This document shows, piece after piece, positions 2-4,945 of a stretch of 10,656 nt of DNA. The translations under genes and the position numbers were made by a program. Source of the stretch: Candidatus Caccocola faecipullorum (GTDB lineage Bacteria; Synergistota; Synergistia; Synergistales; Synergistaceae); NCBI GenBank assembly GCA_018716365.1, contig DVKA01000137.1, forward strand, positions 1-10,656, given 5' to 3'. Under the pieces are notes generated by a model, which made no database searches, had not been told where the DNA came from, and was given only the letters and a program-made list of their open reading frames with translations. How positions within the stretch are numbered: the first letter of the stretch is position 1; each line of letters begins with the position of its first letter.

Positions 2-598
2 TATGTGAACCCCGTCATCTTTTCAAACGAGCTTCAGGCCATCGCGTTCTACGACGAGCCGTGGCATCTCGAAATCCGCGAGCTGATGGAAAAGTTAATT
101 AAAGCGAACCGCGGCGGACGTTTCGGCTACGAAATAGAGATGTACGCAATAATACTGAAAATGTGGCAGGTAATAGTACAGAACAACGAAGAGATCTTGT
201 CCGCCGCGGCCTCTGTGACGTTCTCCGACAAGCAGAGAATAAAGGCTCTGACGCACTACATTCACAGAAATTATATGGAGCGTATTTCGCTCAACGAAAT
301 AGCCGATTCCGACCATATCAGCAAGGGCGAGTGCTGCCGCGTCTTCCAGCGCGTGCTTGGCACGACGCCCTTCGCATACCTCATAAATTACCGCATACAT
401 CAGGGGATGAAAATGCTCGCGACTACCGACCACAATATATCCGAGATAGCGCAGAGCGTCGGATTCGGTTCTGGAAGCTATTTCACGGAGTGCTTCAAAA
501 AGAAGATGCACTGTTCCCCGATGCAATACAGAAAACAGATGCAGGCGGCGGGCGGCGCGCCGCATTTCAAAGAACGGCCAGAGGAAGACTATTCGTAA
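2..598 (+). CDS. AraC-family transcriptional regulator, 5' end cut off by the window
   Basis: The open frame runs in from the left edge (a Tyr codon precedes the first GTG at 5, so that GTG is probably internal) and stops at TAA 596-598. Of the visible residues, the last ~115 form a two-helix-turn-helix AraC/XylS DNA-binding domain. The first HTH is around 'RISLNEIADSDHISKGECCRVF' (listed here only as a landmark of about 22 positions, residues 92-113), followed by the linker 'GTTPFAYLINYRI'. The second HTH contains 'ISEIAQSVGFGSGSYFTECF', ending with the typical 'CSPMQYRK'. The visible N-terminal ~75 residues would be the end of an effector-binding, probably cupin-like, domain; the ligand cannot be told. 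The gene lies 123 bases upstream of, and in line with, the kinase/enolase-like pair, so it is a plausible regulator of that operon. The short tail after the domain is polar and of no clear function. Confidence 0.9.
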   Translation, partial: YVNPVIFSNELQAIAFYDEPWHLEIRELMEKLIKANRGGRFGYEIEMYAIILKMWQVIVQNNEEILSAAASVTFSDKQRIKALTHYIHRNYMERISLNEIADSDHISKGECCRVFQRVLGTTPFAYLINYRIHQGMKMLATTDHNISEIAQSVGFGSGSYFTECFKKKMHCSPMQYRKQMQAAGGAPHFKERPEEDYS

Positions 599-721: not shown

Positions 722-2125
722 ATGCAGTGGAAGATAAGAAACCGCGAGCAGTTGTTATCCCACGGTGACACGGAGTCGAGACGCATCGTACTCGACATAG
801 CGGACAAGACGCTCCAGAAGCTCGACGCGAAGGAACGCATCAAAAGCATAATGAGCCTTGACGGCGACATCCTCCATATCGGGACGAAGAGCTGGGACCT
901 TTCCAAGAAGAAAAACGTTTACCTGGTAGGCGCCGGCAAGGCCTGCAACCACATGGCCATGGCGGTCGACGAAATACTCGGCGACAGGCTGACCCGCGGC
1001 ATCGCTATTGTGAAAATATCAGAGCCAACCGACGTTTTCCATAAAACCGAAGTCTACGTCGGCGGACACCCGCTTCCGAACGAAGAGGGCTACCGCGCCT
1101 GCAAAATAATACTCGACCTCGTAGACCACGCCGGGCCGGACGACCTTTTCATCTGCGTCATAAGCGGCGGAAGTTCCGCGCTTATGAGCTGCCCGATAGA
1201 GGGCATATCTCTCGACGACGAGATAAAGGTCACCGACGTGATGCTCAAATCCGGCGCGAACATATACGAGATAAACGCGATCCGCCGTCATATATCGCAG
1301 ATGAACGGCGGAATGCTCGCCAAGCGCATAGAGGCGCGCGGCGCGGAACTCATCGGCTTCGGCATAAGCGACGCGGTCGGCTCCCCGGCGACTGGAGACA
1401 TCGGAATCCCCTACGCTAAATACAAGAGCACTCCGATGGGACCGGACGCGACGACTCTCGACGACGCGCGGCGCGTCATCCGCGACTACGACGTCGCGGA
1501 CAGGCTCCCGAAAAACGTGGTGGACTACCTCATGAACGCGGGGCCGGAGTGCGAGACGCCGAAAGCGTTCCCGAACAACACCTATTACCTGCTGAACACC
1601 CTGCCCGACTCCTGCATCTACGCAAAGCAGATTTCAGAAGAAATGGGCATTCCGGCGGTCATACTCACATCTTTCCTAGAAGGCGAAAGCCGCGACGTCG
1701 GCACTATGTTCGCCTCCATAGCGCGCGAGATACAGGCCTACGGCAATCCGGTGCAGGCGCCGTGCGTGCTGCTCGCCTCCGGCGAAGCCACGACGCAGAT
1801 ACTCGACAACAGCACGATAACGGGCCACGGCGGCCCCTCTCAGGAAGAGACGCTGAGCTTCGCCCTTTCGGCGGCTAAGGCGAAAGGCATATGCCTGCTC
1901 TCGATGGACTCGGAGGGAACGGACGGCACGACAAGCGTAGCCGGAGGCATTACTGACTCGACAAGCTATAAGGCTGCGCTCGAAAAAGGCGTCGACGTGC
2001 ACGCCGCGCTCCGCGGACATGCAAGCTTCGAGGCGCTCGACGCCATCGGAGACGCGGTCTTTACAGGCAACACAGGAACCAACCTCTGCGACTTCAACGT
2101 CATGTACGTTCCGAAAATAGACTAG
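722..2125 (+). CDS. Glycerate 2-kinase-like protein (DUF4147 + MOFRL domains)
   Basis: This 467-residue cytoplasmic protein has the two-domain layout of class II glycerate kinases (GckA/TtuD type), which phosphorylate D-glycerate with ATP to 2-phosphoglycerate; family length is about 420-470. The N-terminal DUF4147 domain shows GAGKA at 70-74 with the conserved Lys73, SGGSSAL at 148-154, and 'INAIRRHISQMNGG' at 184-197. The C-terminal MOFRL domain (about 347-462) shows SGEATT at 353-358, GHGGPSQEE at 368-376, GTDGTTSVAGG at 399-409 and TGNTGTN at 448-454. From memory of the family, usual motifs are GGRNQE and GTDGPTDAAG. Here Arg and Asn are replaced by Pro and Ser, and the Asp by Ser, so substrate use may be altered. 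The stop codon overlaps the Shine-Dalgarno site of the enolase-like gene 12 bases on, so the two are one operon. Family assignment is secure; glycerate as substrate is inference. Confidence 0.85.
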   Translation: MQWKIRNREQLLSHGDTESRRIVLDIADKTLQKLDAKERIKSIMSLDGDILHIGTKSWDLSKKKNVYLVGAGKACNHMAMAVDEILGDRLTRGIAIVKISEPTDVFHKTEVYVGGHPLPNEEGYRACKIILDLVDHAGPDDLFICVISGGSSALMSCPIEGISLDDEIKVTDVMLKSGANIYEINAIRRHISQMNGGMLAKRIEARGAELIGFGISDAVGSPATGDIGIPYAKYKSTPMGPDATTLDDARRVIRDYDVADRLPKNVVDYLMNAGPECETPKAFPNNTYYLLNTLPDSCIYAKQISEEMGIPAVILTSFLEGESRDVGTMFASIAREIQAYGNPVQAPCVLLASGEATTQILDNSTITGHGGPSQEETLSFALSAAKAKGICLLSMDSEGTDGTTSVAGGITDSTSYKAALEKGVDVHAALRGHASFEALDAIGDAVFTGNTGTNLCDFNVMYVPKID

Positions 2126-2137
2126 GAGGACGCTAAA

Positions 2138-3409
2138 ATGTCAAAAATCCAAGAAGTCAAGGCAAGACAGCTCATCGACTGCAAATGCCGCCCGATGGTC
2201 GAGGTAGACGTGATAACTGAAAACGGCTCGCTCGGCCGCGGAAGCGCGCCGACCGGCAGCTCTGTCGGAATGTACGAGTCGTTCGTCCTCCGCGACGACG
2301 ACCCGAAAGAATACAACGGCATGAGCGTCCACAAGGCAGTCGAAAATGTCAACAAGATAATCGCCCCGGCCCTCGTAGGCAAAGAGGTAAGCGCCCAGGA
2401 CGAAATCGACAAAATAATGATAGAGCTCGACGGGACGCCGGACAAACACAACCTCGGCGGCAACGCGATATACAGCGCCTCGATAGCGGCCTTCCGCGCC
2501 GCGGCCGAAGACACGGGAAAGCCGCTCTACGAATACATTGCGGGCGAGCCTATCCGCGACGTCCCCATCCCGTCGTTCAACGTTATCAACGGCGGCAAAT
2601 ATCCGGGACTGACGCAGGCCTTCAACGAGTTCATCGTCATGCCCTACAAGGCGGACTCGATATATGAAGCTGTCGAAATAGCCGTCAAGGTATTCCAGAA
2701 GCTCGGGCCTGTCATCAAGAACTACACTAAAAAAGAACCAGGAGTCGGCGGCTCATACGGCTGGATTGCGCCTTCCGAAGACCCCGACGTGCTGCTCTCG
2801 CTCATGAGCGAGGCGATAGACGCCTGCGGCTATACCGGCAAATGCGCCTTCGCTCTCGACTGCGCTTCAAGCGAAATGTACGACGCGGCGACCAAGACAT
2901 ATTATCTCAACGGCAAACGCCTCTCCTCCGACGAACTGATCGGCTATGTCAAGGGGCTGACGGAGAGATGGAACTTCGTATTCATCGAAGATATGCTCGA
3001 CGAAAACGACTGGGAAGGCTACGAAATGGCGCATAAGGAAATTTCCCGTACGCTCATAATCGCCGACGACTTCACCGCGACGAGCAAAGAACGCATCGCG
3101 CGCGCCTGCTCGACCAACTCGATAGACGGCTTCATCCTGAAGCCGAACCAGGTCGGGACGATAAGCGAGGCGCTCGACGCCTACCGCTTCGCAAGGGAGC
3201 GCGGACTGCTAGCCATCCCATCTGGACGTTCCGGCGGCGTCATAGGCGACGTAGTGATGGACCTCGCCGTAGGCCTCGACGTAAGCTTCATCAAAAACGG
3301 CTGCCCACGCTCCGGCGAGAGAATAGACAAACTCAACTTCCTGATGCGCGTCGCCGATCTGAATCCCGGCTGCGTGATGTCGGACATAACTTCGCTGGTG
3401 CGCTTCTGA
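2138..3409 (+). CDS. Divergent enolase-family protein (enolase fold, altered active site)
   Basis: This 423-residue protein aligns along its whole length with enolase (2-phosphoglycerate to phosphoenolpyruvate; usual length 415-435). Features kept, with yeast equivalents in brackets, are loop Ser42 in PTGSSVG (Ser39), Glu164 in NEF (Glu168), and the metal ligands Asp241 (Asp246), Glu284 (Glu295) and Asp310 (Asp320). The base Lys335 in ILKPNQVG (Lys345), Arg364-Ser365 (Arg374-Ser375) and Lys386 (Lys396) are also kept. Changed features are the NGGEHADN motif, now NGGKYPGL, so His159 is Tyr155; the GDEGGYAP motif, now GGSYGWIAP, so catalytic Glu211 is gone; and SHRSG, now SGRSG, so His373 is Gly363. 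The N-terminal DSRGNP is DCKCRP. The start is supported by AGGAGG at 2124-2129, 8 bases before ATG. A standard glycolytic enolase elsewhere in the genome is expected. It is likely an enolase-superfamily enzyme for a related phosphorylated acid, or a weak/inactive paralogue; automatic annotation as eno would be unsafe. Confidence 0.85.
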   Translation: MSKIQEVKARQLIDCKCRPMVEVDVITENGSLGRGSAPTGSSVGMYESFVLRDDDPKEYNGMSVHKAVENVNKIIAPALVGKEVSAQDEIDKIMIELDGTPDKHNLGGNAIYSASIAAFRAAAEDTGKPLYEYIAGEPIRDVPIPSFNVINGGKYPGLTQAFNEFIVMPYKADSIYEAVEIAVKVFQKLGPVIKNYTKKEPGVGGSYGWIAPSEDPDVLLSLMSEAIDACGYTGKCAFALDCASSEMYDAATKTYYLNGKRLSSDELIGYVKGLTERWNFVFIEDMLDENDWEGYEMAHKEISRTLIIADDFTATSKERIARACSTNSIDGFILKPNQVGTISEALDAYRFARERGLLAIPSGRSGGVIGDVVMDLAVGLDVSFIKNGCPRSGERIDKLNFLMRVADLNPGCVMSDITSLVRF

Positions 3410-3577: not shown

Positions 3578-4945
3578 CTACTTCCCAAACACTTCCTTCG
3601 CGGCCTTGCGCGAGATTTCGATTCCGAGCTTGATGTCCTCGACGGGGACGTTGAGGGCCGGGCGGAAGCGGACGGTGTTCGCGCCGCAGCCGAGGATGAG
3701 CATATTGTTCGCCTGGCAGGCTTTGAGGAACTTGTTGCGCAGTTCTTCCGAGCAGATGTCGTAGGCGCACATGAGGCCCTTGCCGCGGACGTTGCGGATG
3801 TATTTCGGGAACTCCGCTTCGAGCTCTTTAAGTCCGTTGTAGAGCGCGGGGCCGGCTACGTTGCTGACGTAGTCGAGTATTTTATCGTCGCGGTAGATTT
3901 CAAGGTATCTCTGCGCGCGCACCATGTCGACGACGGTTCCGCCCCATGTCGAGTTGATACGGCTCGATACTGTGAAGCAGTTGTTTTCGACTTCGTCGAT
4001 ACGCGGACCGGCGACGAGGCCGCAGATCTGCGCCTTTTTACCGAACGAGAAGAGGTCCGGCTTGACGGGCGCGTGATGCTGCCAGGCCCACATCTTGCCG
4101 GTGATGCCCATGCCGCACTGCACTTCGTCAAAGATGAGGAGCATTTCGTTTTCGTCGCATATCTGGCGCAGCTGCTGGAAGAACTCGGTGCGGAAGTGGT
4201 TGTCTCCGCCTTCGCCCTGTATCGTCTCGATGATGACGGCGGCGATTCCGTCAGGGTCGTTCATCAGCGCGTGCTTGATCTGCTTTATCGCCTGCGCTTC
4301 GAGCCATTCGACGTCGCCGAGATGCTCTTCAAGCGGGAAGGTTATCTTCGGGTTGATTATGCGCGGCCATTCCGTAAATTTCGCATAGCGCTGGTGCTTG
4401 TTCGGGTCGTTGGTGTTCGTGACGGAGAGGGTGTAGCCGCTGCGTCCGTGGAAGGCCTCGTTGAAGTGCATGATCTTCGTGCCTTTGCGTCCGTCGTAGG
4501 CTTCGCCCGGGGTTATCTTGCCCTTCTGCAGAAGCTTCTGGACTTTCCAGTCCATCGCTACCTTGAAGGTGTTTTCAACGGCGAGCGTGCCGTAGTCGAT
4601 GAAGAATACATGGTTGTAGCCTTCCGGCACCGCGACTTCGCCGAACGTCTTGACGAAGTCCGCCATCTCCTGCGTGTAGATGTCGGAGTTGGCGACTTTA
4701 TTGATGGCGGCGCGGAATATTTTTTCCTTGAACTCTTCGTTGTCGAGCTTCGGATGGTTCATACCGAAGGGGGCCGAGGCGAAGAATGTATAGAAGTCGA
4801 GCCAGTCAGTACCGGTTGCGGAGTCGATGACGTGGCTGCCCTTAGATTTCTCCATGTCGATGACGATGTCGAAGCCGTCGCGGAGCATGAGTTTCTCTAT
4901 CGTTGAGAATACGTCCTTCGGCGCTACCAGATAATTTGATGCCAT
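3578..4945 (-). CDS. lat: L-lysine 6-transaminase (lysine epsilon-aminotransferase)
   Basis: This 455-residue PLP enzyme of aminotransferase class III moves the epsilon-amino group of lysine to 2-oxoglutarate. The product is 2-aminoadipate 6-semialdehyde, which cyclises to piperideine-6-carboxylate. Several segments match the LAT subfamily, as I recall the Mycobacterium enzyme, rather than ornithine or GABA aminotransferases: LAVENTFKVAMDWK (121-134), FDEVQCGMGITG (272-283, Asp273 for the pyridine nitrogen), FGKKAQICG (301-309, Lys303 the likely PLP Schiff-base lysine), and SSRINSTWGG (327-336). The C-terminal NTVRFRPAL (423-431) also matches. GGGAGG at 4954-4959 sits 8 bases before the ATG. 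The gene stands alone, convergent with the enolase-like operon; no semialdehyde dehydrogenase lies next to it. A catabolic role in lysine use is likely, but biosynthetic use (for example a piperideine-derived product) cannot be excluded from the window. Confidence 0.9.
   Translation of the reverse strand: MASNYLVAPKDVFSTIEKLMLRDGFDIVIDMEKSKGSHVIDSATGTDWLDFYTFFASAPFGMNHPKLDNEEFKEKIFRAAINKVANSDIYTQEMADFVKTFGEVAVPEGYNHVFFIDYGTLAVENTFKVAMDWKVQKLLQKGKITPGEAYDGRKGTKIMHFNEAFHGRSGYTLSVTNTNDPNKHQRYAKFTEWPRIINPKITFPLEEHLGDVEWLEAQAIKQIKHALMNDPDGIAAVIIETIQGEGGDNHFRTEFFQQLRQICDENEMLLIFDEVQCGMGITGKMWAWQHHAPVKPDLFSFGKKAQICGLVAGPRIDEVENNCFTVSSRINSTWGGTVVDMVRAQRYLEIYRDDKILDYVSNVAGPALYNGLKELEAEFPKYIRNVRGKGLMCAYDICSEELRNKFLKACQANNMLILGCGANTVRFRPALNVPVEDIKLGIEISRKAAKEVFGK

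Follow-up and report, generated by a model that had tools for sequence, protein, structure and literature searches.

A conserved family of kinase-linked enolase paralogues with a replaced leaving-group side, possibly lyases that form phosphoenolpyruvate from 3-substituted lactates

Introduction

Enolase proper is usually regarded as a single-reaction enzyme. In the canonical protein, Lys345 removes the C2 proton while two metal ions bind the carboxylate and the phosphate, and Glu211 acts with Glu168 and His373 on the leaving hydroxyl; the loss of Glu211 cripples the yeast enzyme. A glycerate route described in Pseudomonas and other bacteria couples a MOFRL-family kinase to hydroxypyruvate isomerase, a reductase and pyruvate kinase (PMC2063504). 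The clusters analyzed here resemble that route in that a MOFRL kinase would feed an enolase-type step and pyruvate kinase, with isomerase and reductase types clustered nearby, and differ from it in having a dedicated enolase paralogue within the cluster that lacks the hydroxyl-releasing residues. A search of open-licence papers returned, among the matches listed, none on a kinase-paired enolase family.

Gene content of the locus

The window, by which we mean the whole stretch of 10,656 nucleotides analyzed (G000:C39:1-10656), comes from the genome of a Synergistota bacterium near Cloacibacillus. An open reading frame on its forward strand (2138..3409) encodes a 423 aa enolase paralogue, assigned by Pfam matches and motifs to what we call the SGRSGG family, that is 95% identical to a protein named enolase in Cloacibacillus sp. 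An23. Only 12 bp upstream of it ends a gene on the same strand (722..2125) for a MOFRL/DUF4147 glycerate-2-kinase-like kinase of 467 aa, in which the DUF4147 and MOFRL domains are both present (PF13660, 204.1 bits; PF05161, 88.8 bits). Its start at 722 was picked by the match to a 467 aa orthologue, the longest open reading frame beginning at 668, and its nearest solved structures are 1x3l and 2b8n (putative glycerate kinase). In contrast to the kinase of the glycerate route (PMC2063504), this protein scores far below the NCBIfam glycerate-2-kinase models (181.1 and 149.2 bits; cut-offs 550 and 670).

Further upstream, positions 2..598 of the forward strand encode an AraC-type regulator (HTH_18, 75.1 bits) whose 5' part is cut off by the edge of the window. 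The matching locus of a genome of the same genus (L033, in G001) carries a full-length 338 aa counterpart of this regulator at the same place and, upstream of it, a divergent gene for a dehydrogenase of the OCD family and TRAP transporter genes. In the genome of the window itself, the OCD-family and TRAP genes lie at the start of contig C90 in the same order as in L033, and an assembly break inside the regulator gene seems to separate the window from that contig. On the other side of the pair, a gene for L-lysine 6-transaminase (3578-4945, reverse strand; 564 bits, cut-off 520.8) adjoins the cluster, and such a gene is likewise found nearby in L033 and L035. Beyond it the reverse strand encodes a CxxCxxCC protein, found by profile search, followed by mreB, truA, ecfT, two copies of ecfA, rplQ and rpoA, open reading frames that were named by eye.

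Active-site residues of the window protein

Enolase of EC 4.2.1.11 and the paralogue share both domains over their full length. The window protein scores far over the cut-offs of Enolase_N (154.6 bits) and Enolase_C (197.5 bits), among solved enolases it scores best with 2pa6 (E 6e-88, spanning residues 3-406), and it reaches 363.8 bits with the enolase equivalog TIGR01060, whose cut-off of 300 therefore fails to separate the paralogue from enolase. Misannotation as enolase, anticipated in the original prediction, is thus borne out by this model and by the names of relatives, which are called enolase or phosphopyruvate hydratase; the protein is a real and conserved one that the standard model takes for enolase. 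The match to the MR/MLE group is below cut-off (PF13378, 25.3 bits; cut-off 29.4). PRK08350, an archaeal-type hypothetical protein, is likewise an enolase paralogue lacking an assigned function, but its best match spans only residues 1-153 of the window protein (63.7 bits; cut-off 624).

The active site was examined in alignments with solved enolases and with the family, with columns numbered on a canonical Pantoea enolase (L139); yeast-style labels (His159, Glu211, His373 and so on) are used for these columns. The alignments confirm that the active site is altered in the way first described for this sequence. The metal ligands Asp241, Glu284 and Asp310 are kept, together with Glu164, Lys335 (the position of the catalytic Lys345; codon at 3140..3142) and Lys386 (Lys396; 3293..3295). 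On the other hand, the position of His159 is occupied by Tyr155 (2600..2602), that of His373 by Gly363, and VGDEGG has become VGGSYG, with Glu211 aligned to Ser206 (2753..2755). Three further changes go beyond that description, namely Gln167 to Asn163, which directly precedes the kept Glu164 of the Glu168 position (2624..2629), Thr40 to Val43, and Glu377 to Gly367. The last of these closes the stretch Gly363-Arg-Ser-Gly-Gly367 (3224..3238), where the His373 and Glu377 positions are changed and those of Arg374 and Ser375 are kept as Arg364 and Ser365; Ser42 is kept as well. All of these codons lie on the forward strand. The paralogue therefore shares with enolase the metal ligands and the Lys345, Lys396, Glu168, Arg374 and Ser39 positions, and differs from it by replacement at every one of the Glu211, His373, His159, Gln167, Glu377 and Thr40 positions.

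Conservation, phylogeny and selection

We collected 154 distinct enolase homologues, mostly from a scan seeded with the family's own alignment and complemented with relatives out of the genomes searched, and sorted them by residues into 83 family members (Ser at the Glu211 and Gly at the His373 position), 61 canonical enolases (His159, Glu211 and His373 intact) and 10 that were neither. The Ser/Gly and His/Glu/His counts are thus given by construction, being the selection rules. Outside these rules, all 83 family members, the window protein included, have Asn, Val and Gly at the Gln167, Thr40 and Glu377 positions, where all 61 canonical enolases have Gln, Thr and Glu. The metal ligands Asp246, Glu295 and Asp320, as well as Glu168, Lys345, Arg374 and Lys396, are present in 83/83 members. 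Less strictly fixed are the Ser39 (78 Ser, 5 Thr) and Ser375 positions (69 Ser, 14 Ala), the Tyr207 position (Tyr in 81/83, Phe in 2/83) and the His159 position, which holds Tyr in 60 members, Asn in 21, Cys in one and Gly in one. Under the separation rule applied, fifty positions distinguish the family from the canonical set.

A quick tree was built from 79 of the 154 sequences (35 of the 83 family members, 34 of the 61 canonical enolases and all 10 others), leaving out the active-site columns. The branch that parts the family side from the canonical enolases measures 1.1 changes per column and has an SH-aLRT value of 100, so the separate branch is, along with the kinase pairing described below, a further difference from enolase. 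The family side holds the 35 family sequences, the paralogues of L149 and L151 with a Tyr-Tyr-Gly/Ser pattern, and the divergent L155; the only sequence departing from the family rule that is placed among the family is that of L080, which has Ala at the Glu211 position. While the free tree mixes L080 in, constraining the 35 family rows to one clade was not rejected (p-AU 0.117), which is no proof of a single clade. The placement of several outlying paralogues is unsure because their branches are long.

Between the window and L033, the enolase paralogue has a dN/dS of 0.036, the kinase one of 0.035 and MreB one of 0.020; for the paralogue the ratio was 0.105 against L035 and 0.088 against L036, and saturated against L034. 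These values show that the paralogue is a maintained protein under strong purifying selection. The idea of a non-catalytic or decaying copy, to which the missing canonical residues might lead, is scarcely credible, given that the metal ligands and both lysines are present throughout the family, that the dN/dS ratio is so low, and that the pair with the kinase is conserved and in places fused. The earlier rejection of plain decay is upheld by the same features and by the separate conserved branch.

Spread, and canonical enolase in carrier genomes

A single scan through a collection of species-level genomes yielded 122 relatives, and 80 loci were retained from it. Carriers belong to Synergistota, Clostridia, Bacilli, Treponema, Planctomycetota, Actinomycetota, Burkholderiales, Rhizobiales, Pantoea, Pseudomonas and other groups. 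Enolase-type matches were also found in 240 plasmid records, nine of which, from Agrobacterium, Rhizobium and Shinella, are 75-80% identical to a family query, an assignment by identity rather than by motif; the remaining 231 are under 60% identity. Within the set of 60 genomes, five carry the family (G000, G001, G010, G025 and G026).

A second, canonical eno beside the altered copy, as envisaged in the original prediction, is present in most carriers and missing from the nearest genomes. With TIGR01060, no second match was found in the genome of the window (88% complete), and no canonical enolase in its near relatives G001 and G026, both 99% complete: the two matches in G001 are the counterpart of the window gene and a fusion in which the kinase is joined to a different type of enolase paralogue, and the single match in G026 is the counterpart of the window gene. 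Among the other carriers, where 50 of the 80 loci, from 49 genomes, were checked, 42 genomes hold an additional full-length, canonical-scoring enolase match over 580 bits, which makes the family, as a rule, a supplementary enolase-like enzyme. Genome G062 has only an enolase fragment, and no canonical-scoring match was found in G064, G069, G070, G074, G106 or G108, for which completeness is not given.

The paralogue could be the working enolase of Cloacibacillus, equipped with an unusual acid, as the three genomes without a canonical enolase all have a phosphoglycerate mutase of the dPGM type. That type scores over 360 bits in 11 of the 12 Synergistaceae genomes tested, and the gpmI and apgM models match none of these 12. 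We nevertheless consider this reading improbable, given the canonical-scoring enolase in 42/49 other carriers and the effect of losing Glu211 in yeast. Moreover, Synergistaceae genomes with no enolase match at all are not uncommon, and several relatives of this kind, among them G002, G004, G005, G007 and G009, which are 96-100% complete, keep the mutase. In genomes that lack a canonical eno, the wrong label would make glycolysis and gluconeogenesis seem complete, perhaps falsely.

Gene neighbourhood

The kinase next door, which the original prediction did not mention, is the strongest clue to the function of the paralogue. A MOFRL-family kinase is encoded directly upstream in 72/83 family loci, with a gap of less than 50 bp between the profile matches in 66 of these 72, and is fused to the enolase in a further 9/83, making 81/83 in total. 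The two exceptions are L102, which ends at a contig edge, and L118, where the kinase lies within the locus on the opposite strand and a 2-hydroxyacid dehydrogenase gene stands in between. Beside canonical enolases, on the other hand, the kinase was found in 0/61 loci, with flanks mostly of about 1.5 kb.

The longer loci also encode an SbnB-like dehydrogenase of the OCD family, found in 43 of the 48 whose length reaches at least 18 kb, always with over 380 bits, and missing from L041, L073, L076, L092 and L114. The copy on contig C90 belongs to PRK06199 (443.4 bits; cut-off 362), a subfamily whose label, tyramine oxidase subunit B, seems questionable. SbnB is a dehydrogenase in the synthesis of 2,3-diaminopropionate for staphyloferrin B. 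Among solved structures it scores best with the OCD partner encoded in L034 (4m54, E 4e-30), although the two copies scanned against TIGR03944 (SbnB), from L116 and L034, stay at 163.1 and 168.4 bits, below its cut-off of 326.9. SbnB is reported to work in siderophore synthesis (PMC3179956), whereas the OCD partner is a PRK06199 member found in clusters with uptake systems. Paralogues of the PRK06199 type also occur in Synergistaceae away from any kinase-enolase cluster (L172, 7992-9116; L173, 7986-9113; L174, 6929-8119), where they lie beside a carrier of the sodium/glutamate symporter family in L174, a similar carrier, judged by eye, in L172, and a pair best matching sarcosine oxidase subunits, below cut-off, in L173.

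Other neighbours were grouped using a simple codon model for gene calling, which detected none of the core genes in L097, L103, L117 and L068, so that the cluster counts are lower bounds; the profile-based counts (kinase, OCD and others), rechecked at higher scores, are unaffected by these gaps. Many cluster names were assigned by eye. Recurrent genes, some of them named in this way, encode TRAP parts, amino-acid-type ABC transporters and regulators of the RpiR, GntR and MocR types, and, among the enzymes, proline-racemase family members, hydantoinase A/B, AP_endonuc_2 TIM barrels and YgeY-type hydrolases. Parts of TRAP or amino-acid-type ABC transporters are found in 21/48 long loci and glutamate dehydrogenase in 13/48. 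At least one nitrogen-type neighbour (glutamate dehydrogenase, proline racemase, FAD amino-acid oxidoreductase, hydantoinase, YgeY, CN hydrolase, RidA or amino-acid-type ABC permease) is present in 33/48 long loci, a figure that has no matched background and includes several clusters named by eye.

A pyruvate kinase gene is present in only two of the loci read: in L042 it comes after the enolase gene, as a 168 aa fragment (178.9 bits) at the contig end, and in L110 it comes after the OCD gene, at full length (601.6 bits). The cluster of L160 contains a pyruvate carboxylase gene. A LarA-type racemase is encoded in 11/83 family loci (5/48 long ones); that of L057 is nearest to the malate racemase LarAH6, under cut-off. 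The paralogue itself might catalyze enolisation without elimination and so epimerise or racemise a phospho-hydroxy acid, which would accord with a kept base and metal site and a changed leaving-group side. This is a distant prospect: those loci with LarA already have a racemase, no path is visible from a phospho-epimer to central metabolism, and the pyruvate kinase neighbours point elsewhere.

Proposed reaction

Based on these features, we regard the paralogue as probably, by a modest degree, an active enzyme in a beta-elimination primed by ATP, where it takes the second step after the MOFRL kinase. The kinase would phosphorylate a 3-substituted lactate (X-CH2-CHOH-COO-) on its 2-hydroxyl, and the resulting phospho-acid would be held on two metal ions in the paralogue, where Lys335 would remove the C2 proton and X would be expelled from C3 to give phosphoenolpyruvate; pyruvate kinase would then convert the latter to pyruvate, recovering the ATP. 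In favor of this scheme, the base, metal and phosphate sites are kept and the leaving-group side is replaced uniformly throughout the family. A kept base and metal half, a replaced leaving-group half, the kinase and the pyruvate kinase together suggest that the eliminated group can leave without an acid; since Glu211 and His373, which hold and protonate the leaving hydroxyl, have given way to small residues, X would not be a hydroxyl. Several considerations weigh against the scheme: a new acid could come from Tyr207 or Ser206, with a hydroxyl still leaving; the neighbours, which differ widely between phyla, may belong to other pathways; pyruvate kinase is present in only two of the loci read; and five of the 48 long loci have no OCD gene. 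The reaction, its direction, its product and the nature of X are what we infer. The original prediction of enolisation chemistry on another substrate agrees with the kept Lys335, Glu164 and metal site, with the linked kinase and with the two pyruvate kinase neighbours; as a whole, its interpretation is partly supported, its residue claims standing as observations and its chemistry remaining a proposal. A lyase acting on a different phospho-hydroxy acid is what the protein probably is.

As to the leaving group, our best single guess, offered tentatively, is an amine, from a substrate of the isoserine or N-carboxyalkyl-amine type; it is prompted by the nitrogen-type neighbours, a weak step. Beta-hydroxyaspartate, nicotianamine, mimosine, Amadori and opine compounds and products of 5-hydroxyuracil were weighed as substrates on chemistry alone.

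If the hydroxyl does leave, with Tyr207 for example as the acid, the enzyme could be a dehydratase of a longer 2-phospho sugar acid such as 2-phospho-erythronate or a 2-phospho-aldonate. The Ser/Gly/Gly replacements should widen the pocket for a longer chain, Tyr207 is nearly invariant, and some proteobacterial clusters contain a dihydroxy-acid dehydratase with a sugar phosphate isomerase/epimerase (L160) or an AP_endonuc_2 TIM barrel (L116). We judge this rather unlikely, as the position of His159, varying among Tyr, Asn, Cys and Gly, is a poor candidate for the acid, and as the pyruvate kinase and pyruvate carboxylase neighbours, at three loci, suggest that the product is a C3 compound.

Sulfite, which departs without the help of an acid, would be another possible X. 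The archaeal phosphosulfolactate synthase ComA forms phosphosulfolactate from phosphoenolpyruvate and sulfite, and conversion of 2-phospho-3-sulfolactate to phosphoenolpyruvate and sulfite would be the reverse of that reaction. Beside the OCD paralogue of L172 is an LDH2-type dehydrogenase whose best match is L-sulfolactate dehydrogenase (266 bits; cut-off 500), L082 has an ABC transporter that by eye is of the taurine/sulfonate type, and a DMSP_lyase-family cupin occurs in L160. Nevertheless, no sulfite-handling gene was found among the recurrent neighbours whose representatives were searched, and the glutamate dehydrogenase, hydantoinases and YgeY would be left unexplained, which makes sulfite a most improbable leaving group. 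The cupin gene of L160 lies at 14574-15266, within the cluster, on an Agrobacterium plasmid.

Returning to the proposed elimination from a phosphorylated 3-substituted lactate, we think it possible, although somewhat short of probable, that the family represents hidden phosphoenolpyruvate-forming lyases for such lactates, probably amine-bearing and opine- or isoserine-like, and that kinase-enolase pairs of this kind have been re-tooled more than once. If so, enolase itself would evolve new lyase reactions by rebuilding its leaving-group side while locked to a kinase, an unrecognised catabolic route would exist in gut, termite-gut and plant-associated bacteria, and enolase annotations would have to be corrected.

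Other enolase paralogues

Enolase paralogues adjacent or fused to the kinase were found beyond the family at four loci (L149, L151, L037 and, as a fusion, L032), which have different residues at the His159, Glu211 and His373 positions. Judged from these sequences, re-tooled kinase-enolase pairs may have arisen more than once; were this true, enolase would be a family of several reactions. The fusion of L032 (5001-7604, reverse strand; 867 aa) is a second paralogue type within the same genus and adjoins genes for a nickel-pincer isomerase (group 22) and a tripartite tricarboxylate transporter. In L149 (5578-9571), the kinase gene stands ahead of two enolase paralogues in tandem, which have Tyr in place of Glu211 and the first of which adjoins the kinase; genes nearby resemble, by eye, those for an ABC transporter of the oligopeptide type and an MR/MLE-like protein.

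No kinase was detected within the distance tested in L152, L154, L155 and L156. The paralogues of L152 (6935-8278) and L154 (179-1504), with no adjoining kinase, keep His159 and Glu211 and have Ala at the His373 and Asp at the Glu168 position. That of L156 (6983-8254) has His at a metal-ligand position and Asn at the Lys345 position, and with these replacements it is probably not an enolase-type catalyst. Finally, Petroclostridium sp. X23 carries a broken duplicate of a kinase-enolase pair (L150, 6399-8228), and a related copy at another site of its genome (L151) is intact.
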